Below are positions 9,750 to 21,457 of a stretch of DNA of 44,355 nucleotides, piece by piece (position 1 is the first letter of the stretch; each line of letters opens with the position of its first letter). The notes under the pieces were generated by a model. It was given only the letters and a program-made list of their open reading frames with translations, had not been told where the DNA came from and ran no database searches. Made by a program: the position numbers and the translations under genes. This stretch comes from Bacteroidales bacterium (GTDB lineage: Bacteria > Bacteroidota > Bacteroidia > Bacteroidales > UBA932): positions 1 to 44,355 of the forward strand of contig JAGCYZ010000053.1 in assembly GCA_017960545.1 (NCBI GenBank), read 5' to 3'.

Positions 9750-10799
9750 CTATTTTACGCTAAAGGCAAAAATGATGGCCTCCTGATAGGTCTCGCCCGG
9801 TTTGAGCACGGTGCTGGGATATTCGGGCTCGTTGGGAGAGTCAGGGAAATGCTGGCACTCGATGGCTATTCCGCCGTAGTCAGGATAAACGTGGCCGTTC
9901 TTTCCCTTGGCATCGCCCAGCCAGTTGCCGGTATAAACCTGGACTCCGGGTTGGGTGGTGATAACTTCCAGCGCAATGCCGCTCTTCTCTGAATAGAGCT
10001 CGGCAGCGGTCTGCAGCTGGCCTGGCAGGTAGCCGTCTATCACAAAGCAATGGTCGTATCCCTTTGCAATGGTCAGGGCCGGGAAGTCCTCGTGCAGGTC
10101 GCGTCCCACTTTCTTTTCCGTAACAAAGTCAAGAGGCGTTCCTGCCACGGGTGCGGGCTCTCCCAGAGGGATGAGTCCGGCATCGGTAGGCAGATACTCG
10201 GAGCAGTTCAGTTTGAGGATGTGGTCCTCTATTGTGCCGTTGCCCTCGCCGTTAAGGTTGAAATATGCGTGGTTCGTGAGGTTTACCACGGTGTCCTGGT
10301 CTGTCTCGGCAGTGAGGGTGAGCTTGAGGGAATTGTCGTCCGCCCACTCGTAATGGGCCACCGCCTTGAGAGTTCCGGGATATCCTTCTTCGCCATCTTC
10401 TGAAATGTACATGAATTCTACGGCATTGTCCAGTACCCGGCTTTCCCATACCTGATAGGAGAAGCCCCAGGGACCGCCGTGAAGATGGTTGGGACCGTTG
10501 TTGACCGCAAGGTTGTACTCTTTGCCGTTGAGCTCGAAATGACCCTTGGCAATTCTGTTGGCGAACCTTCCGGGAACCCTTCCCAGGTATGCGCCGTCGT
10601 CAAAATAAGAGTCGGTGTCGTCAAAGCCCAGTGACACGTCCCTGAGGATTCCTTCCTTGTCAGGAACAATCACTGAAACTATGCTTGCGCCAAGAGATGT
10701 GAGCACTACCTGCGCTCCGCTGCTGTTTGTGAGGTAGTACTTGTAGATTTCCTTACCGTCTTTGGAAGATTTTCCCCAGAATTCTGTCTTGATTTTCAT
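9750..10799 (-). CDS. galM: Aldose 1-epimerase (galactose mutarotase)
   Basis: GalM interconverts alpha- and beta-D-galactose and so supplies galactokinase with the alpha anomer after lactose hydrolysis. The 349-aa protein has the RFANRIAKGHFELNG substrate region, NHLHGG, the NHAYFNLNGEG segment with the family's catalytic histidine, and the C-terminal catalytic glutamate in GIAIECQHFPDSPN. No signal peptide is seen, so it is expected in the cytoplasm. It is flanked closely by a Na/Pi symporter gene (14 bases) and thyA (3 bases). lacZ and galK lie about 6 kb away in a separate transcript. Confidence 0.95.
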   Translation of the reverse strand: MKIKTEFWGKSSKDGKEIYKYYLTNSSGAQVVLTSLGASIVSVIVPDKEGILRDVSLGFDDTDSYFDDGAYLGRVPGRFANRIAKGHFELNGKEYNLAVNNGPNHLHGGPWGFSYQVWESRVLDNAVEFMYISEDGEEGYPGTLKAVAHYEWADDNSLKLTLTAETDQDTVVNLTNHAYFNLNGEGNGTIEDHILKLNCSEYLPTDAGLIPLGEPAPVAGTPLDFVTEKKVGRDLHEDFPALTIAKGYDHCFVIDGYLPGQLQTAAELYSEKSGIALEVITTQPGVQVYTGNWLGDAKGKNGHVYPDYGGIAIECQHFPDSPNEPEYPSTVLKPGETYQEAIIFAFSVK

Positions 10800-10813
10800 A
10801 TGGCTGTGTGTTA

Positions 10814-12556
10814 TTAATACTCGTTATACTCAGGAAGGAGGGCCTGTGAGATGTTGATAATAAAGTCTCCCATCTTCTCGAACTCGCTCACGATATCCAT
10901 ATAGAACACGCCGGTCTGGTACTCGTAATTGGCCTTTTCCAGATTGGCGATGTGCTCCTCCCGGAGGTTGTTGCGGTATTCGTTTATGCTGTACTCCGCG
11001 TCAAGGGAGTTATTGATATCCTTGAGACCCCTCTCAGGAACCTTAAGGTTGTGCATCATAGCGTCATACGCCGCCTGGAGCAGGTCCATCATATGGTTGA
11101 GCTTGCGCAGGAGCACGGGAGAGAACTTCTTTCCGTGGGCCTGGGCCCTTTCCAGCATTCGGCCGATGGTCTCGCCGGAGTCACCAAGGCTCTCCATTTC
11201 GCCTATTATCTTGTACATGCTCTTGATCCTCTTTGTGGTGATGGCGCTGATCTCTCCCTTGGCAACCTCACCCAGATAGGAGGCAATCTCGTATTCCAGC
11301 TTATCCGTTATGCCTTCGTACTTCTTGAGCTTGTCGTATCGGGCTGTTATGTTGTCAGGGTCAGGGTCGTTGATAGCCTCACGCACGTGGCCGAATCCCT
11401 GGCAGCAAACTTCCCCAAAGTGGATGATTTCGTGCCTGGCCTCGTTGAGGGAAAGCTCGGCAATTCCCAAAGGACCTCCCTTGATGTACTGGAGCTTGAA
11501 TTCCTCCTCCTCTCCTTCCTGGCTCGGGACAAGGAACTTGACTATCTTCTCTATCTGAGGAACGAACCAGATGAGGATGAGGGTGTTGGTGATGTTGAAC
11601 ATGGAGTGCAGCGTGGCGACGCTGTACGGGAGTGAAGCGACCAGGGCGTTGCGGGTTGCCTCATCCGCCATCATAAAGTCTGTGGTGGCGGGGTTGGGGA
11701 AGCCGAAAGCAGATACAACCCCTCCTATGAGCCTAAGGAAAGGCCGGAATAGGATTGTAGCCCAGATAACTCCAAACAGGTTGAACACCATATGCGCCCG
11801 CGCAGTCCTCTTTGCAGAAACGTTTGCCACGGAAGCGGCGATATTGGAGGTGATGGTCGTTCCTATGTTCTCTCCAAGCACCATTGCGGCCGCCATTGAG
11901 AAAGGAATGAAGCCATTGGCCACAAGCACCATTGTGATGGCCATTGTGGCGGCGGAGGACTGGAGCATCAAGGTCATTACGGCACCCGTCACCATAAAGA
12001 TGAGAATGGATCCGAAACCGAAGCCCGTCAGCCGTGACAGGAAGACCCTTACGGGTTCGTTGTCCAGCAGGACGGTTGAAGTTTCCCTAAGTGTAGCCAG
12101 GCCAAGGAACAGAAGCGCAAAGCCCATCAGGAACTCTCCTCCGTTGTTCAGGTTCTTCTTCTTCATTGAAAGAAGGACGAAGGCGAAGAACATCAGCGGG
12201 ACCGCTATGGTTCCAAAGCTGAAGCCGCCTCCACCGAACGACAGGGCAAAGATCCAGGCCGTGACGGTTGTTCCGATATTGGCTCCCATAATTACTCCGA
12301 TAGCGTTTGCAAGCGACAGCAAACCTGCGTTTACAAAGCTCACTATCATAAGGGTGGTGGCCGTGGAAGACTGTACCAGGGCGGTTACTACCAAGCCGGT
12401 CATCACCCTCCTGAACGCTGTGGAGGTCATTGAAGCCATAAAGGAGCGAAGTTTGTCGCCCGCCATTTTCTGCAGGCCTCCGCTCATCAGGGACATTCCG
12501 TAAAGGAACATTCCCAGAGAACCCAGAAGGGTTAGGATTTGTAAAACTAAGGACAT
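10814..12556 (-). CDS. Na/Pi-cotransporter II family protein with C-terminal PhoU-like domain
   Basis: The protein has 580 aa with the start chosen here. Two inverted Na_Pi_cotrans repeats are marked by the QSST/QSSA motifs TALVQSSTATTLM and TLMLQSSAATMAI. A hydrophilic C-terminal domain of about 230 residues is rich in helices and resembles PhoU (EIASYLGEVAKGEISAI, MESLGDSGETIGRM). Such proteins bring phosphate into the cell with Na+ at the inner membrane. A GTG at 12580 gives 8 more residues, but it overlaps the minus-strand TAAATTTG box (12580-12587), so the transcript would begin downstream of it; the ATG at 12556 is preferred. It is the first gene of the six-gene run down to 5743. Confidence 0.92.
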   Translation of the reverse strand: MSLVLQILTLLGSLGMFLYGMSLMSGGLQKMAGDKLRSFMASMTSTAFRRVMTGLVVTALVQSSTATTLMIVSFVNAGLLSLANAIGVIMGANIGTTVTAWIFALSFGGGGFSFGTIAVPLMFFAFVLLSMKKKNLNNGGEFLMGFALLFLGLATLRETSTVLLDNEPVRVFLSRLTGFGFGSILIFMVTGAVMTLMLQSSAATMAITMVLVANGFIPFSMAAAMVLGENIGTTITSNIAASVANVSAKRTARAHMVFNLFGVIWATILFRPFLRLIGGVVSAFGFPNPATTDFMMADEATRNALVASLPYSVATLHSMFNITNTLILIWFVPQIEKIVKFLVPSQEGEEEEFKLQYIKGGPLGIAELSLNEARHEIIHFGEVCCQGFGHVREAINDPDPDNITARYDKLKKYEGITDKLEYEIASYLGEVAKGEISAITTKRIKSMYKIIGEMESLGDSGETIGRMLERAQAHGKKFSPVLLRKLNHMMDLLQAAYDAMMHNLKVPERGLKDINNSLDAEYSINEYRNNLREEHIANLEKANYEYQTGVFYMDIVSEFEKMGDFIINISQALLPEYNEY

Positions 12557-12579
12557 TAACCTAAAGAGTGATATTCTCA

Positions 12580-12587
12580 CAAATTTA
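12580..12587 (-). promoter_or_regulatory. -7 promoter box of the Na/Pi-galM-thyA-folA-NSS-NSS run (TAAATTTG)
   Basis: The minus strand reads TAAATTTG about 24 bases ahead of the ATG at 12556, a perfect match to the Bacteroidota -7 consensus. Its position rules against the GTG at 12580 as start codon. It faces away from a second box (12600-12607) serving the plus-strand gene. Confidence 0.7.
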
Positions 12588-12599
12588 GTAAAAAAATGT

Positions 12600-12607
12600 T
12601 AGTTTTG
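12600..12607 (+). promoter_or_regulatory. -7 promoter box of the HExxH/propeller/barrel gene (TAGTTTTG)
   Basis: TAGTTTTG matches TAnnTTTG, and the ATG at 12612 follows only 4 bases after the final G. The expected transcription start therefore falls on or beside the A of ATG, so the mRNA should be leaderless. Confidence 0.68.
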
Positions 12608-12611
12608 TATT

Positions 12612-15600
12612 ATGGATGTCCGCAAGCTGATATGCGCAGCCGGCCTGTTTTTTTTATGCCTCACGGCACACGGCCAGTTCTTTACTTATGGTGACGATCC
12701 GGGGGGAGTCCGCTGGTCCGGAATACAGACGGATTCTTACCGGATAATCTATCCGCGGACAATGGATTCCCTGGCCCTCCAATACGCATTGGCCCTTGAG
12801 AAATATGCCCCTGCAGTGGGCCGCAGCATTGGTTTTACACCCAACCAGGCTTACAGGAAACCTATGCCGGTAATCCTTCACGCCTTCACCTCCGAGGCTA
12901 ACGGAATGTCCGTATGGACGCCCCGCCGCCTGGAACTGCGCACCGTCCCAGACGCCTACGGCCCCACGCCGTTCCCCTGGATCACGGACCTTGCCATCCA
13001 CGAATCCCGCCACACCGCACAGATGCAGTATTCCAACACCGGACGCCTGCGCATCTTCAGCTTCCTGCTGGGAGAGATGTCTTCCGGAGCAATGGCTTCA
13101 CTGTACGGCAACCAGGCTTTTTTTGAAGGCGATGCCGTAGTGACAGAAACCGCCCTTACCAAATCCGGACGCGCCCGCACCGCGGACTTCCTGGAATACT
13201 ACCGCTTTGCCCTGGACCACGGAGATTTCAGGGATTATTACAAATGGTATTACGGATCCATAAAGAATTACACGCCAACCTATTATACGGCCGGATATAT
13301 GTTCGTGGCCGGTATGCGCACCCTGTACGACGACCCCTTGTTCACGAAGCGTTTCTACTCCAATGTCTTCCGCCTCAAGGTCTGGCCATTCCCAATGTTC
13401 AATATGCAGTACACCGTAAAGCAGGCGTCGGGAAAGCAGTTCAGGGAGACTTTCAGGGAGATAGAAGACTATTTCCTGGATATCTGGAGGCAGGAAACTG
13501 CCGCAAGGGCTCCCTTTATGCCGGGAGACCAGGTTACTCCGGATGCCCGGCGCCACCGCGTGTTCTGGGGAACGGCGCTGGCGGGGGACAGGCTCTATGG
13601 CATCAGGTCCGGACAGGACGTGACCACGCGTCTGGTGGACCTGCAGACAGGCAGGACTCTCAGAGAATTTGCAATAGGGACGGGAAGCCTGATGTGGTCA
13701 GATTCCCTTGGCCTGCTCCTCTGGAGCGAAAACGTCCCTGACGCCAGATGGTCCCTGGCCTCAACTTCCCGCATACGTTTCTATGATCCTGAAACCGGAA
13801 GGTCTGGGGACCTGACAAAGAAAGGACGGTACTTCAACCCGGCCCCTTCGCCGTCGGATTCCCGCATTGCGGTAACCTCCTACCCTTACGGAGGAGGTTC
13901 TCAAAGCGTAATCCTTGACGGTGGCACGGGCAACGTCTCCCTTGCCGTCTCTGCTCCGGATTCCCTGCAGATTGTAGAAAGCGCCTGGATAGGGAACGAT
14001 GTTGTCATCAGCGGAATCTCCGACGCCGGATTCGGCCTTTACAATGCCTCCAAGGGCTTTTCCACTATCCTTGAGCCCCGTCCGGTGAAGATCAAGCAAC
14101 TGCGTTCCAGCGGCACTGAACTGCTGTTCGTAAGCGATATGAACGGAGTCAACGAACTCTACAGCCTTGATACTGCAACCGGGGAACTCTGCCGGTTGAC
14201 CTCAACCCGGTACGGCGCTTCGGAATTCGTCTTCAAGGGAGATTCCCTGTATTATTCCGCCTTTTCCGCAAAGGGCAAATCCGTATTCCGTACCGCAATA
14301 AGTGACTTGCCCCGCACCAAGGTCAATCCCGCACAATACCACCAATACACCATAGAGGACAAGCTGTCCGCACAGGAGCAGTCCCTGGCTGATTTCCAGG
14401 CCGCATCCGCTGCTATCCAGCCTGCAAAGGATTACAGCAAGGCCCTGCACCTGCTTAAAATCCACTCCTGGGCTCCCGTTTACGTAGATTACAACTCCGT
14501 CAGCACCATCTCTATGGATATCTTCAACCACATAGCCAAGCCCGGCGCCATGGTCTTCTTCCAGAACGACCTTGGAACGGCTTCCGGCTATGCCGGATAC
14601 TCTTACTCCAAAGACGCCCACGGAGACCCCCGGCACGCCGTGCACCTGAATTTCAAGTATTCCGGGCTCTATCCCGTCATCGAGGGGACCCTCCATTACA
14701 ACAATTCGTTCAGCTCCCATTACAACCTTTTGTCAAGGATCAACGGCAACCGCATCGTCAAGAGCTTCAAACCCACGGAAACGTCTGACCCGCAGTTCTC
14801 CGGGAACATCTCCGTCTATGTTCCCCTCAAGTTCTCAAAGGGAGGGTGGATCTCCGGCATTGTCCCTCAGGTCAGATATACCTTTTCAAACACAATGTAT
14901 GACCTTGGCGTGGCTTCTTTCAAGTACTCCCCTGGATTCGGTCCCGACAACTCCGGAAGGATGGTCTTCCAGAACAAGGAGAGCGCCCAGATCCTTCCCG
15001 CCCAGAGGGTGATAGCCTCCATACGCGCTTACAGGATGACCAACAAGGCCCGCAGCGGCGTCTATCCGCACCTGGGAGGGGGATTGGAATTGGGTGTGGG
15101 TTCACGCGTAGGCTTGGGCAAGGTATTCAGCCCCAATTTTTACGCCTCCGCATACGGATACCTGCCAGGACTGCTTCCGGAGCACGGTATCAGGCTCTCC
15201 GCAGTGGGCCAGAAGCATCTGGACAGCGGCTACATTTTCAACGAGAACACTGTTTCCTGCCTGCCAAGGGGATATTCCGTCCTTGCAACCACGGCAGGTC
15301 CCATAGCGGCATACGGCACTCAGATTAAACTTGCATTCGACTACACGATGGCCATCCTCCCCGTGGACTGGTCCTTCCTCAGCCCCGTGGCTTACATCCG
15401 CAATTTCATCCTGAGTCCGCACGCGGATTATGCAATGTATTTCAAAGGGGATGATACCCTCCAGCTTTGCAGCGTGGGAGCAGACCTGAGCGTGTCCCTG
15501 GGCAACTTCCTGTGGCTGCCCTTTGACACTGAAGTTGGCGTAAGCTATGTTTATAACTGCGGAAAGGGATTCAACACCGTCAACGTGGGCGACTCCCCCG

Positions 15601-15644
15601 GACGGCATTATGTAGGTATGATTTTCAATATAGACATTCAATAA
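12612..15644 (+). CDS. Secreted outer-membrane protein: HExxH metallopeptidase-like domain, beta-propeller-like middle, beta-barrel-like C-terminus
   Basis: This is a 1010-aa protein with a signal peptide (residues 1-21, cleavage near AHG-Q). Residues about 40-290 resemble a gluzincin-type peptidase: LAIHESRHTAQM gives an HExxH motif (H130, E131, H134), and FFEGDAVVTE (E172, E179) offers the downstream glutamate such zinc sites need. Residues about 300-560 are short repeated beta units with SLMWSDS, YFNPAPSPSDSRIAV and ELLFVSDMNGVNELYSLD phrases, as in TolB/WD40-like propellers. Residues about 620-1010 alternate aromatic and polar residues and end in YVGMIFNIDIQ, as outer-membrane barrels do. 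I do not recognise a named family; a surface metalloprotease or receptor is an inference. The next gene is coupled by TAATG. Confidence 0.8.
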   Translation: MDVRKLICAAGLFFLCLTAHGQFFTYGDDPGGVRWSGIQTDSYRIIYPRTMDSLALQYALALEKYAPAVGRSIGFTPNQAYRKPMPVILHAFTSEANGMSVWTPRRLELRTVPDAYGPTPFPWITDLAIHESRHTAQMQYSNTGRLRIFSFLLGEMSSGAMASLYGNQAFFEGDAVVTETALTKSGRARTADFLEYYRFALDHGDFRDYYKWYYGSIKNYTPTYYTAGYMFVAGMRTLYDDPLFTKRFYSNVFRLKVWPFPMFNMQYTVKQASGKQFRETFREIEDYFLDIWRQETAARAPFMPGDQVTPDARRHRVFWGTALAGDRLYGIRSGQDVTTRLVDLQTGRTLREFAIGTGSLMWSDSLGLLLWSENVPDARWSLASTSRIRFYDPETGRSGDLTKKGRYFNPAPSPSDSRIAVTSYPYGGGSQSVILDGGTGNVSLAVSAPDSLQIVESAWIGNDVVISGISDAGFGLYNASKGFSTILEPRPVKIKQLRSSGTELLFVSDMNGVNELYSLDTATGELCRLTSTRYGASEFVFKGDSLYYSAFSAKGKSVFRTAISDLPRTKVNPAQYHQYTIEDKLSAQEQSLADFQAASAAIQPAKDYSKALHLLKIHSWAPVYVDYNSVSTISMDIFNHIAKPGAMVFFQNDLGTASGYAGYSYSKDAHGDPRHAVHLNFKYSGLYPVIEGTLHYNNSFSSHYNLLSRINGNRIVKSFKPTETSDPQFSGNISVYVPLKFSKGGWISGIVPQVRYTFSNTMYDLGVASFKYSPGFGPDNSGRMVFQNKESAQILPAQRVIASIRAYRMTNKARSGVYPHLGGGLELGVGSRVGLGKVFSPNFYASAYGYLPGLLPEHGIRLSAVGQKHLDSGYIFNENTVSCLPRGYSVLATTAGPIAAYGTQIKLAFDYTMAILPVDWSFLSPVAYIRNFILSPHADYAMYFKGDDTLQLCSVGADLSVSLGNFLWLPFDTEVGVSYVYNCGKGFNTVNVGDSPGRHYVGMIFNIDIQ

Positions 15645-16261
15645 TGGACAACCAGGCCAATTGCACCTGCTCCGCCTGCGGAGCCCCTTACCGGATGGAT
15701 ATCCATCCTTCCATCAACGTTTCCAAGGAGCCTTCCCTCAAGGCGGCAGTCCTGGACGGGTCCCTCTTTATGTGGGAATGCCCGCAGTGCGGGCAGAAGA
15801 ACCTTGCCAGGTACACCACCCTGTACCACGACCCCTCCCAGAAACTGCTCATCCTGCTGTCAGACGGCAATTCCAAGGCAGAAGAGGCCCTTGCCAAGGC
15901 CTTCTCCCAGTCATCGGAAATGGAGGGTTATACGGCTCGTTTCGTGGACGATGTGGGCACCCTGATGGAAAAGGTGAAGATCTTTGACGCCGGCCTTGAT
16001 GACAGGGCGATGGAAATGTGCAAGTACGTCACCTGTATGGAGATGGGCAAGACCCTCAACTTCAAGTTCTTCCGCCTGGACGGGGCTGACGGGGACATTA
16101 CGCTCACCTACCCGGGCAACGGGCAGATGGAAATGGTCAACATTGGATTCAACGTCTATTCCGACTGCGAGCGCATCCTTGCCCGCAACCCTTCCATAAC
16201 GGAAGGATCCACCGGATTTGTCAGGATTGACAACCGGTGGATCTCTCAGTTCCTGGGATAA
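15644..16261 (+). CDS. CpXC-domain zinc-ribbon protein
   Basis: The 205-aa protein has no signal peptide. Two Cys pairs, C9-S-A-C12 and C46-P-Q-C49, frame the CpXC pattern, with the typical SLKAAVLDGSLFMWECPQCG and a tyrosine/aspartate stretch TTLYHDPSQKLLILL after it. The two pairs most likely bind one zinc ion. The family has no known function. Its ATG overlaps the stop of the large secreted protein (TAATG, 1 base), so the two are translationally coupled; a functional link is plausible even though one product is predicted outside and the other inside the inner membrane. It converges on galK with a 3-base gap. Confidence 0.82.
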   Translation: MDNQANCTCSACGAPYRMDIHPSINVSKEPSLKAAVLDGSLFMWECPQCGQKNLARYTTLYHDPSQKLLILLSDGNSKAEEALAKAFSQSSEMEGYTARFVDDVGTLMEKVKIFDAGLDDRAMEMCKYVTCMEMGKTLNFKFFRLDGADGDITLTYPGNGQMEMVNIGFNVYSDCERILARNPSITEGSTGFVRIDNRWISQFLG

Positions 16262-16264
16262 GCC

Positions 16265-21457
<5,193 letters not shown>

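Follow-up and report, generated by a model that had tools for sequence, protein, structure and literature searches.

Is the 1010-residue protein encoded at 12612..15644 on the forward strand an enzyme of the outer membrane, and does the small CpXC zinc-ribbon protein encoded directly after it take part in its work? Both genes lie in the window analyzed here, the whole 44,355-nt contig JAGCYZ010000053.1 of a Bacteroidales bacterium (assembly GCA_017960545.1). Positions given without a locus name refer to the forward strand of this contig, on which both genes are encoded. An initial annotation had described the large gene product as a surface protein joining a zinc peptidase-like domain, a TolB/WD-like middle and a barrel-like end, coupled to CpXC as a two-component system. 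Domain-wise comparisons support the joining of a peptidase-like domain, a propeller and a barrel on one chain. Reasoning from sequence, we consider it rather probable that the product of the large gene is a peptidase of the outer membrane, in which a gluzincin domain, a TolB-like propeller and an Omp85 barrel would serve envelope quality control or maturation from the periplasmic side.

Domains and conserved site of the large protein

The large gene is an open reading frame (ORF) from ATG to TAA, and its 1010-residue product carries HESRH at residues 130–134 and FFEGDAVVTE at residues 170–179 (EGDA at 172–175), confirming what had been read from the letters. Compared with the relatives L001 and L002, the ORF is 88% and 84% identical, with a nonsynonymous divergence (dN) of 0.064 and 0.102, a synonymous divergence (dS) of 0.71 and 0.86, and dN/dS of ~0.09 and ~0.12, respectively. 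Because it is kept in both relatives at low dN/dS, with HExxH and E172 invariant, the ORF is more than a chance reading frame.

Annotation overlooks the family to which this protein belongs, as the window protein gave no Pfam match with E-values of up to 10 allowed; PADLOC likewise gave no family for the large protein or for the CpXC protein. In single-sequence searches (E ≤ 0.001), the large gene had a match in 93 of the 99 genomes searched from its taxonomic family and in 174 of 295 from the order (149 of the 243 good genomes). A profile search of the class returned matches below E 1e-90 in 39 of 295 genomes, 38 of them across nearly the whole model; the overall profile tallies for class and phylum (152/295 and 276/296) are not counts of the family, as many of the listed matches cover only the propeller. 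A propeller-only match was also the reason to reject an apparent extra copy beside the gene in L218. From the phylum-search matches listed, 40 distant members were picked by hand. All 40 match the N-terminal domain and the propeller, with whole-protein E-values of 4.4e-36 or better, and in several the C-terminal match to the family is weak or missing. On these matches, the family is spread over Bacteroidota, yet not universal. No relative was found among 75 pattern stretches from viral contigs, and a tblastn search of plasmids with one distant member gave no match.

The first alignment comprised 61 close members, 49 of which were used for library scans. The joint alignment of 99 combined 59 of the 61 with the 40 distant members and omitted L001 and L002 as near-copies; since aligned members were selected through their match to the family, counts of 99/99 are to be read with that selection in mind.

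The N-terminal domain (residues 22–305, 12675..13526) contains the putative active site. None of the 99 aligned members departs from H130, E131 and H134 of the HExxH motif (HESRH, 12999..13013), E172 of EGDA (13125..13127), N97 (12900..12902), R187 (13170..13172) or Y225 of a YxxGY motif (13284..13286). By precedent from gluzincins, H130 and H134 would be zinc ligands and E131 the general base, with E172 likely the third ligand and R187 and Y225 probable active-site residues. All of these positions, together with E179 (13146..13148), are invariant in the 61 close members, and in 51 of the 59 regex matches the Glu follows the second His at a spacing of 37 or 38 residues. The initial annotation had pointed to downstream glutamates in FFEGDAVVTE. 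E179 is kept in 78 of 78 rows of the order-level conservation table, in which at least two proteins count double (the copies of G022 and G328:C32 give identical rows), but it falls below 90% in the joint alignment, so that only E172 holds across the family.

Comparison with known families is consistent with this assignment. Peptidase_MA_2 was matched by 17 of 40 distant members at E 0.1 (best 2.3e-10, some above the curated cut-off), and DUF2268, a predicted zinc protease family, was touched by 6 of 49 close members (best E 2.2e-4). The N-domain profile aligned with L104, a 781-residue reading frame carrying HELVH...WMVEGMA from the same taxonomic order (hhalign 96.3%, E 1.8e-9); for two smaller proteins the values were 77.0% and 57.7%. 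Three of the four Peptidase_MA_2 comparison loci had yielded an ORF with HExxH. Given the conserved HExxH and E172, the DUF2268 and Peptidase_MA_2 matches and the L104 alignment, the N-domain is likely gluzincin-type (peptidase clan MA-like), as the initial annotation had suspected, and would be expected to bind zinc and cleave peptides.

The middle region (approximately residues 306–605, 13527..14426) is predicted to form a TolB/DPP-like β-propeller, in agreement with the earlier description. The 61-member profile reached solved TolB structures at E 7.2e-12 and the distant-member profile at E 3.7e-25, and the TolB model TIGR02800 had hits in 39 of the 49 close members scanned and in all 40 distant ones. 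Taken alone, the window protein reached a Protein Data Bank (PDB) TolB chain at E 0.25, and its sole NCBIfam match was the TolB model (E 0.043). As its score of 12.7 bits lies far under the curated cut-off of 343, we rejected TolB orthology and read the region as a TolB-like propeller distinct from TolB itself.

The C-terminal region (approximately residues 606–1010, 14427..15641) is probably an Omp85/BamA-type β-barrel, probably of 16 strands, which narrows the barrel-like end noted earlier to one type. The joint 99-member profile aligned with the Bacteroidales BamA barrel at hhalign 95.1% in local mode (E 3.4e-8) and 97.1% in global mode, and the distant-only profile reached 95.8% with BamA and 0.2% with TonB receptors. 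TonB receptors were the one other barrel type compared, with a usable row from 26 of 30 loci; here the joint profile scored 0.5% and 0.1%, and a TonB-type barrel was rejected on these values (0.1–0.5%). Reversed profiles, the propeller and the N-domain gave 0.1–0.4% locally and 0–0.6% globally, and 40 column shuffles scored at most 19.2, compared with 64.8 for the BamA alignment. The hhalign alignment pairs PRGY (residues 885–888, 15264..15275) with LRGY, the loop 6 motif in Bacteroidota BamA; its distance to the C-terminus is as expected for that motif, and the strands at the C-terminal end come after it. R886 is present in 57 and G887 in 60 of the 61 close members.

Several results weigh against an Omp85-anchored peptidase and should be set beside these. 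The close-member N-domain profile found no solved structure when the PDB was searched by sequence, and the distant N-domain profile reached an unrelated repeat protein at E 0.02 and a collagenase at E 1.3. For the barrel, the close-member profile alone scored 2.4% with the BamA barrel and 0.9% with whole BamA; neither barrel profile found a solved structure at E 10 in the same kind of PDB search; and the Omp85-type match in the Pfam library was weak, coming from 1 of 40 distant members at E 0.012. NCBIfam-type models for BamA, TamL or Omp85 were touched by 3, 1 and 1 of the 40 distant members (best E 0.0016, 0.0061 and 0.081); such direct hits favor the barrel type, though they are few and weak. 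No POTRA model appeared among the best 25 of 32 Pfam families for the close members or the best 25 of 31 for the distant ones. Omp85 subfamilies without POTRA have been described already, in the part of PMC4104836 that surveys them. At the level of genomes, 94 of the 243 good genomes of the order gave no match in the single-sequence search, so the gene is not universally needed, and no neighboring gene is shared by over 20 of the 64 stretches compared, so the context gives no substrate.

The Omp85 call therefore depends on the distant members, as the window's own subfamily fails to reach BamA, and the 2.4% score and the missing PDB match could be taken to mean that the C-terminus anchors the protein in the outer membrane as an ordinary barrel with no relation to Omp85. 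We regard this as very unlikely in view of the 95.1% and 95.8% obtained with BamA by the joint and distant-only profiles, as opposed to 0.5% and 0.2% with TonB receptors, and of the placement of PRGY on LRGY. An Omp85-type barrel remains our assignment.

Copies without the site and where the protein may act

Four full-length second copies, which came from inspecting multi-copy genomes and not from a full survey, lack the catalytic site: L193:6910-9921 and L209:8111-11092 on the reverse strand, and L211:8270-11407 and L286:430-3399 on the forward strand. All four have lost HExxH and kept the propeller and barrel residues. Each of the genomes concerned (G022, G015, G014 and G079) also has a copy with an intact site; in G022, the dead copy stands in tandem with the live one and adjoins CpXC. 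The remaining 17 of the 21 copies examined keep HExxH and E172. Three further ORFs that apparently lacked HExxH were rejected, as the motif is present and long 5′ extensions had misled.

The losses are concerted. L127, H130, E131, V176, E179, R187 and Y225 are altered in all four dead copies, and N97, H134 and E172 in three of the four. Over the 45 positions conserved at 95% or above, retention in the dead copies amounts to 12 of 12 propeller cells, 44 of 44 barrel cells and 78 of 124 N-domain cells. We read the jointly lost positions as the outline of the active site, a map drawn by nature. In a tree of propeller and barrel, built by a quick method, the status of the site needs three changes, forced by strongly supported branches, although a single loss with two regains would formally account for them too. 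As the rest of the protein persists in the dead copies, propeller and barrel appear useful without catalysis, and loss of the site with the scaffold kept suggests a real enzyme that has a separate scaffold job.

The same four copies might be taken further, as evidence for a protein that works chiefly in assembly or as a scaffold, a BamA–BamB-like fusion of the kind proposed in 2014 for WD40-Omp85 proteins (in the section of PMC4104836 on that class), with the peptidase site as a minor activity. Their retained propeller and barrel do imply that the scaffold has value on its own. Such a protein would, however, hardly be expected to keep its site unchanged throughout the 99 aligned members from across the phylum or, among the multi-copy genomes inspected, to lose it only where another site-bearing copy is present, and we consider a mainly structural role unlikely.

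For the peptidase that we favor, a route to the outer membrane can be proposed. Residues 1–21 (12612..12674) form a predicted signal peptide, hydrophobic and without a lipobox Cys, and the mature protein is predicted to start at Q22, which is present in 99 of 99 aligned members. Cleavage before Q22 would agree with the Bacteroidetes Q-rule. After export by Sec and this cleavage, the protein would be anchored through its C-terminal Omp85-type barrel, with the N-domain and the propeller hanging from the barrel into the periplasm. Zinc would be held by H130, H134 and E172, with E131 as base and N97, R187 and Y225 close to the site. The propeller may present or filter substrates, as related propellers of TolB and S9 peptidases do, and the peptidase would cut what is presented in a BepA-like role, the likeliest substrates being envelope proteins that arrive at the outer membrane misassembled or still maturing. 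A siteless second copy could serve as a binding-only partner, a regulator or a decoy.

The orientation in this scheme departs from the initial annotation, which had placed the protein at the surface. Peptidase and propeller could instead pass through the membrane and act at the cell surface, for example on dietary or host proteins. Many Bacteroidota surface enzymes are known, the BAM complex itself has a surface propeller, BamI, according to the passages that describe it, and sequence alone does not fix the side. Domains that precede this type of barrel have nevertheless been found in the periplasm. In the patatin–Omp85 protein PlpD, for which a surface position had been proposed earlier, the enzyme domain was shown to be periplasmic (in the relevant part of PMC11116518). 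TolB-type propellers are periplasmic as well. Because of Omp85 topology and the periplasmic enzyme domain of PlpD, we favor the periplasmic side and would give a surface location little credence. As described there, PlpD resembles the large protein in having a hydrolase N-terminal to an Omp85 barrel and differs in carrying a lipase and POTRA where the large protein has a peptidase and a propeller.

The CpXC gene and its surroundings

The CpXC gene (15644..16261) encodes a 205-residue zinc-ribbon protein that matches PF14353 over residues 8–127 (E 1.1e-33). The junction with the large gene reads CAATAATGGAC, in which the TAA stop and the ATG start share one base, the final A of the stop, confirming the TAATG overlap reported in the initial annotation; the overlap recurs in L001 and L002. 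Within the genus, CpXC was found in 7 of 7 sampled genomes, in 6 of them on the same contig and at most ~2 kb from a copy of the large gene, and in the seventh (G041) on a different contig. Adjacency to CpXC thus extends beyond this genome to one genus, and not beyond the genus. In the taxonomic family, CpXC is present in 11 of 99 genomes, and it was not seen in 82 of the 93 genomes that carry the large gene. Outside the genus, 4 of 92 genomes of the family have CpXC, in each case on another contig than the large gene. In the order, it occurs in 3 of 295 genomes, and in G304, the one outside the family, the large gene lies on contig C47 and CpXC on C50.

Even where the two genes are close, their arrangement varies. 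CpXC overlaps the large gene downstream in the window, L001 and L002, lies downstream of the dead copy in G022, and precedes the large gene in G084 (L197:7666-11384), where stop and start overlap as ATGA (junction read by eye). In G058 and G072, an opposite-strand gene stands between the two. No signal peptide was seen ahead of the first Cys pair in 11 CpXC proteins of the family, whose N-termini were read by eye, and for lack of an apparent signal peptide CpXC and the large protein are probably in different compartments.

A two-component system, in which the large protein and CpXC act together, could draw on the TAATG overlaps, on the ATGA overlap in reversed order in G084, and on the presence of CpXC in all seven genus genomes, near a copy in six. 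It is hard to reconcile with a large gene that occurs in 93 of 99 family and 174 of 295 order genomes, as against 11 of 99 and 3 of 295 for CpXC, with the four unlinked cases outside the genus, or with the intervening gene in G058 and G072 and the separate contigs in G041. Furthermore, CpXC has no apparent signal peptide, and the whole gene block is common to the genus, so the linkage may be plain synteny. We therefore do not support the two-component proposal, which we think highly improbable, and rejected CpXC as a partner: the linkage does not extend past a single genus, within which it is loose, and the large gene occurs elsewhere without CpXC. The pairing resembles synteny at the level of the genus, translationally coupled in some cases, and CpXC is probably outside the mechanism proposed for the large protein.

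Other features of the region can be noted briefly. At L195:11461-12768 and L196:4385-5707, a gene of ~436–441 codons lies on the opposite strand between the large gene and CpXC; we take its product to resemble a membrane exporter. In the window (9750-20502), the gene pair is flanked by galactose mutarotase-like and Na/Pi cotransporter-like genes on one side and by galactokinase-like and β-galactosidase-like genes on the other, names that we assigned by eye from the sequences and not by family search. The most widely shared neighbor of the family is a ~1022-residue membrane protein encoded within 11 kb in 20 of 64 stretches (the L217-L232 region set), at varying distance and on either strand, which is probably old synteny; the simple gene caller used in this survey overlooked the large-gene copy of L003. 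Upstream of the large gene, TAGTTTTG (12600..12607) is separated from the ATG by 4 bases and is identical in L001 and L002. It fits TAnnTTTG, the Bacteroidota promoter −7 consensus, and may mark a leaderless start. Matches to the pattern number 9 on one strand and 11 on the other across the 44-kb window, so a single match is weak evidence for a promoter.

Relation to known systems

The combination of a propeller with an Omp85 barrel is known. WD40-Omp85 proteins carry a TolB-like propeller on an Omp85 barrel and were proposed to be a BamA–BamB-like platform (Heinz and Lithgow 2014, PMC4104836, in the account of that class). In both cases the propeller directly precedes the barrel without POTRA; compared by published description and not by sequences, the two differ in the conserved gluzincin domain that precedes the propeller here. 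The word "peptidase" is absent from the main text of PMC4104836, and in open-licence PubMed Central the term WD40-Omp85 occurs in this one paper only. In the same open-licence full text, no other paper was recognized by title or abstract as describing a propeller–metalloprotease–barrel combination. What appears to be new is the conserved gluzincin-type domain ahead of the propeller.

The propeller sequence family is shared with TolB and the S9 peptidases. TolB is soluble and has neither a peptidase domain nor a barrel, and the S9 enzymes are serine peptidases. BepA and its M48 relatives belong to a different family and are not known to combine their peptidase with a propeller or a barrel in one chain. 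Among Pfam families, we take PF00149 to be calcineurin-like phosphoesterases and not gluzincins. PF00149 is the domain of the "Metallo" Omp85 subfamily, which was named as a metalloprotease–Omp85 fusion with a suggested role in periplasmic quality control, and whose section in PMC4104836 mentions no propeller. The likeness to BepA, YcaL and LoiP, zinc peptidases of outer-membrane protein quality control (PMC13067283, in the passages that treat them), lies in a zinc peptidase acting on outer-membrane proteins during assembly. Bacteroidota BamA (PMC12611786, PMC12578637) and TamL (PMC12045153) have the barrel type and the phylum in common with the large protein, and BamI of the Bacteroidota BAM complex also has a propeller, according to the relevant parts of PMC12611786 and PMC12578637. 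The word "peptidase" is absent from the main text of both BAM papers, and its two uses in the main text of PMC12045153 concern signal peptidases.

A wider view is possible, although we hold it only tentatively. The family may represent phylum-wide outer-membrane machines, in which an Omp85 barrel with its own periplasmic zinc peptidase and propeller gate would form an assembly-and-disposal unit, and in which dead copies would have evolved repeatedly as holdases or regulators. On this view, the WD40-Omp85 class, taken for a BamA–BamB fusion, would be an enzyme family. Outer-membrane assembly in Bacteroidota is, in our judgement, unusual, and little is known about proteolytic quality control at this membrane; the family described here is a concrete candidate for such a role. 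It offers predicted active-site residues, together with natural catalytic knock-outs in which the scaffold is kept.

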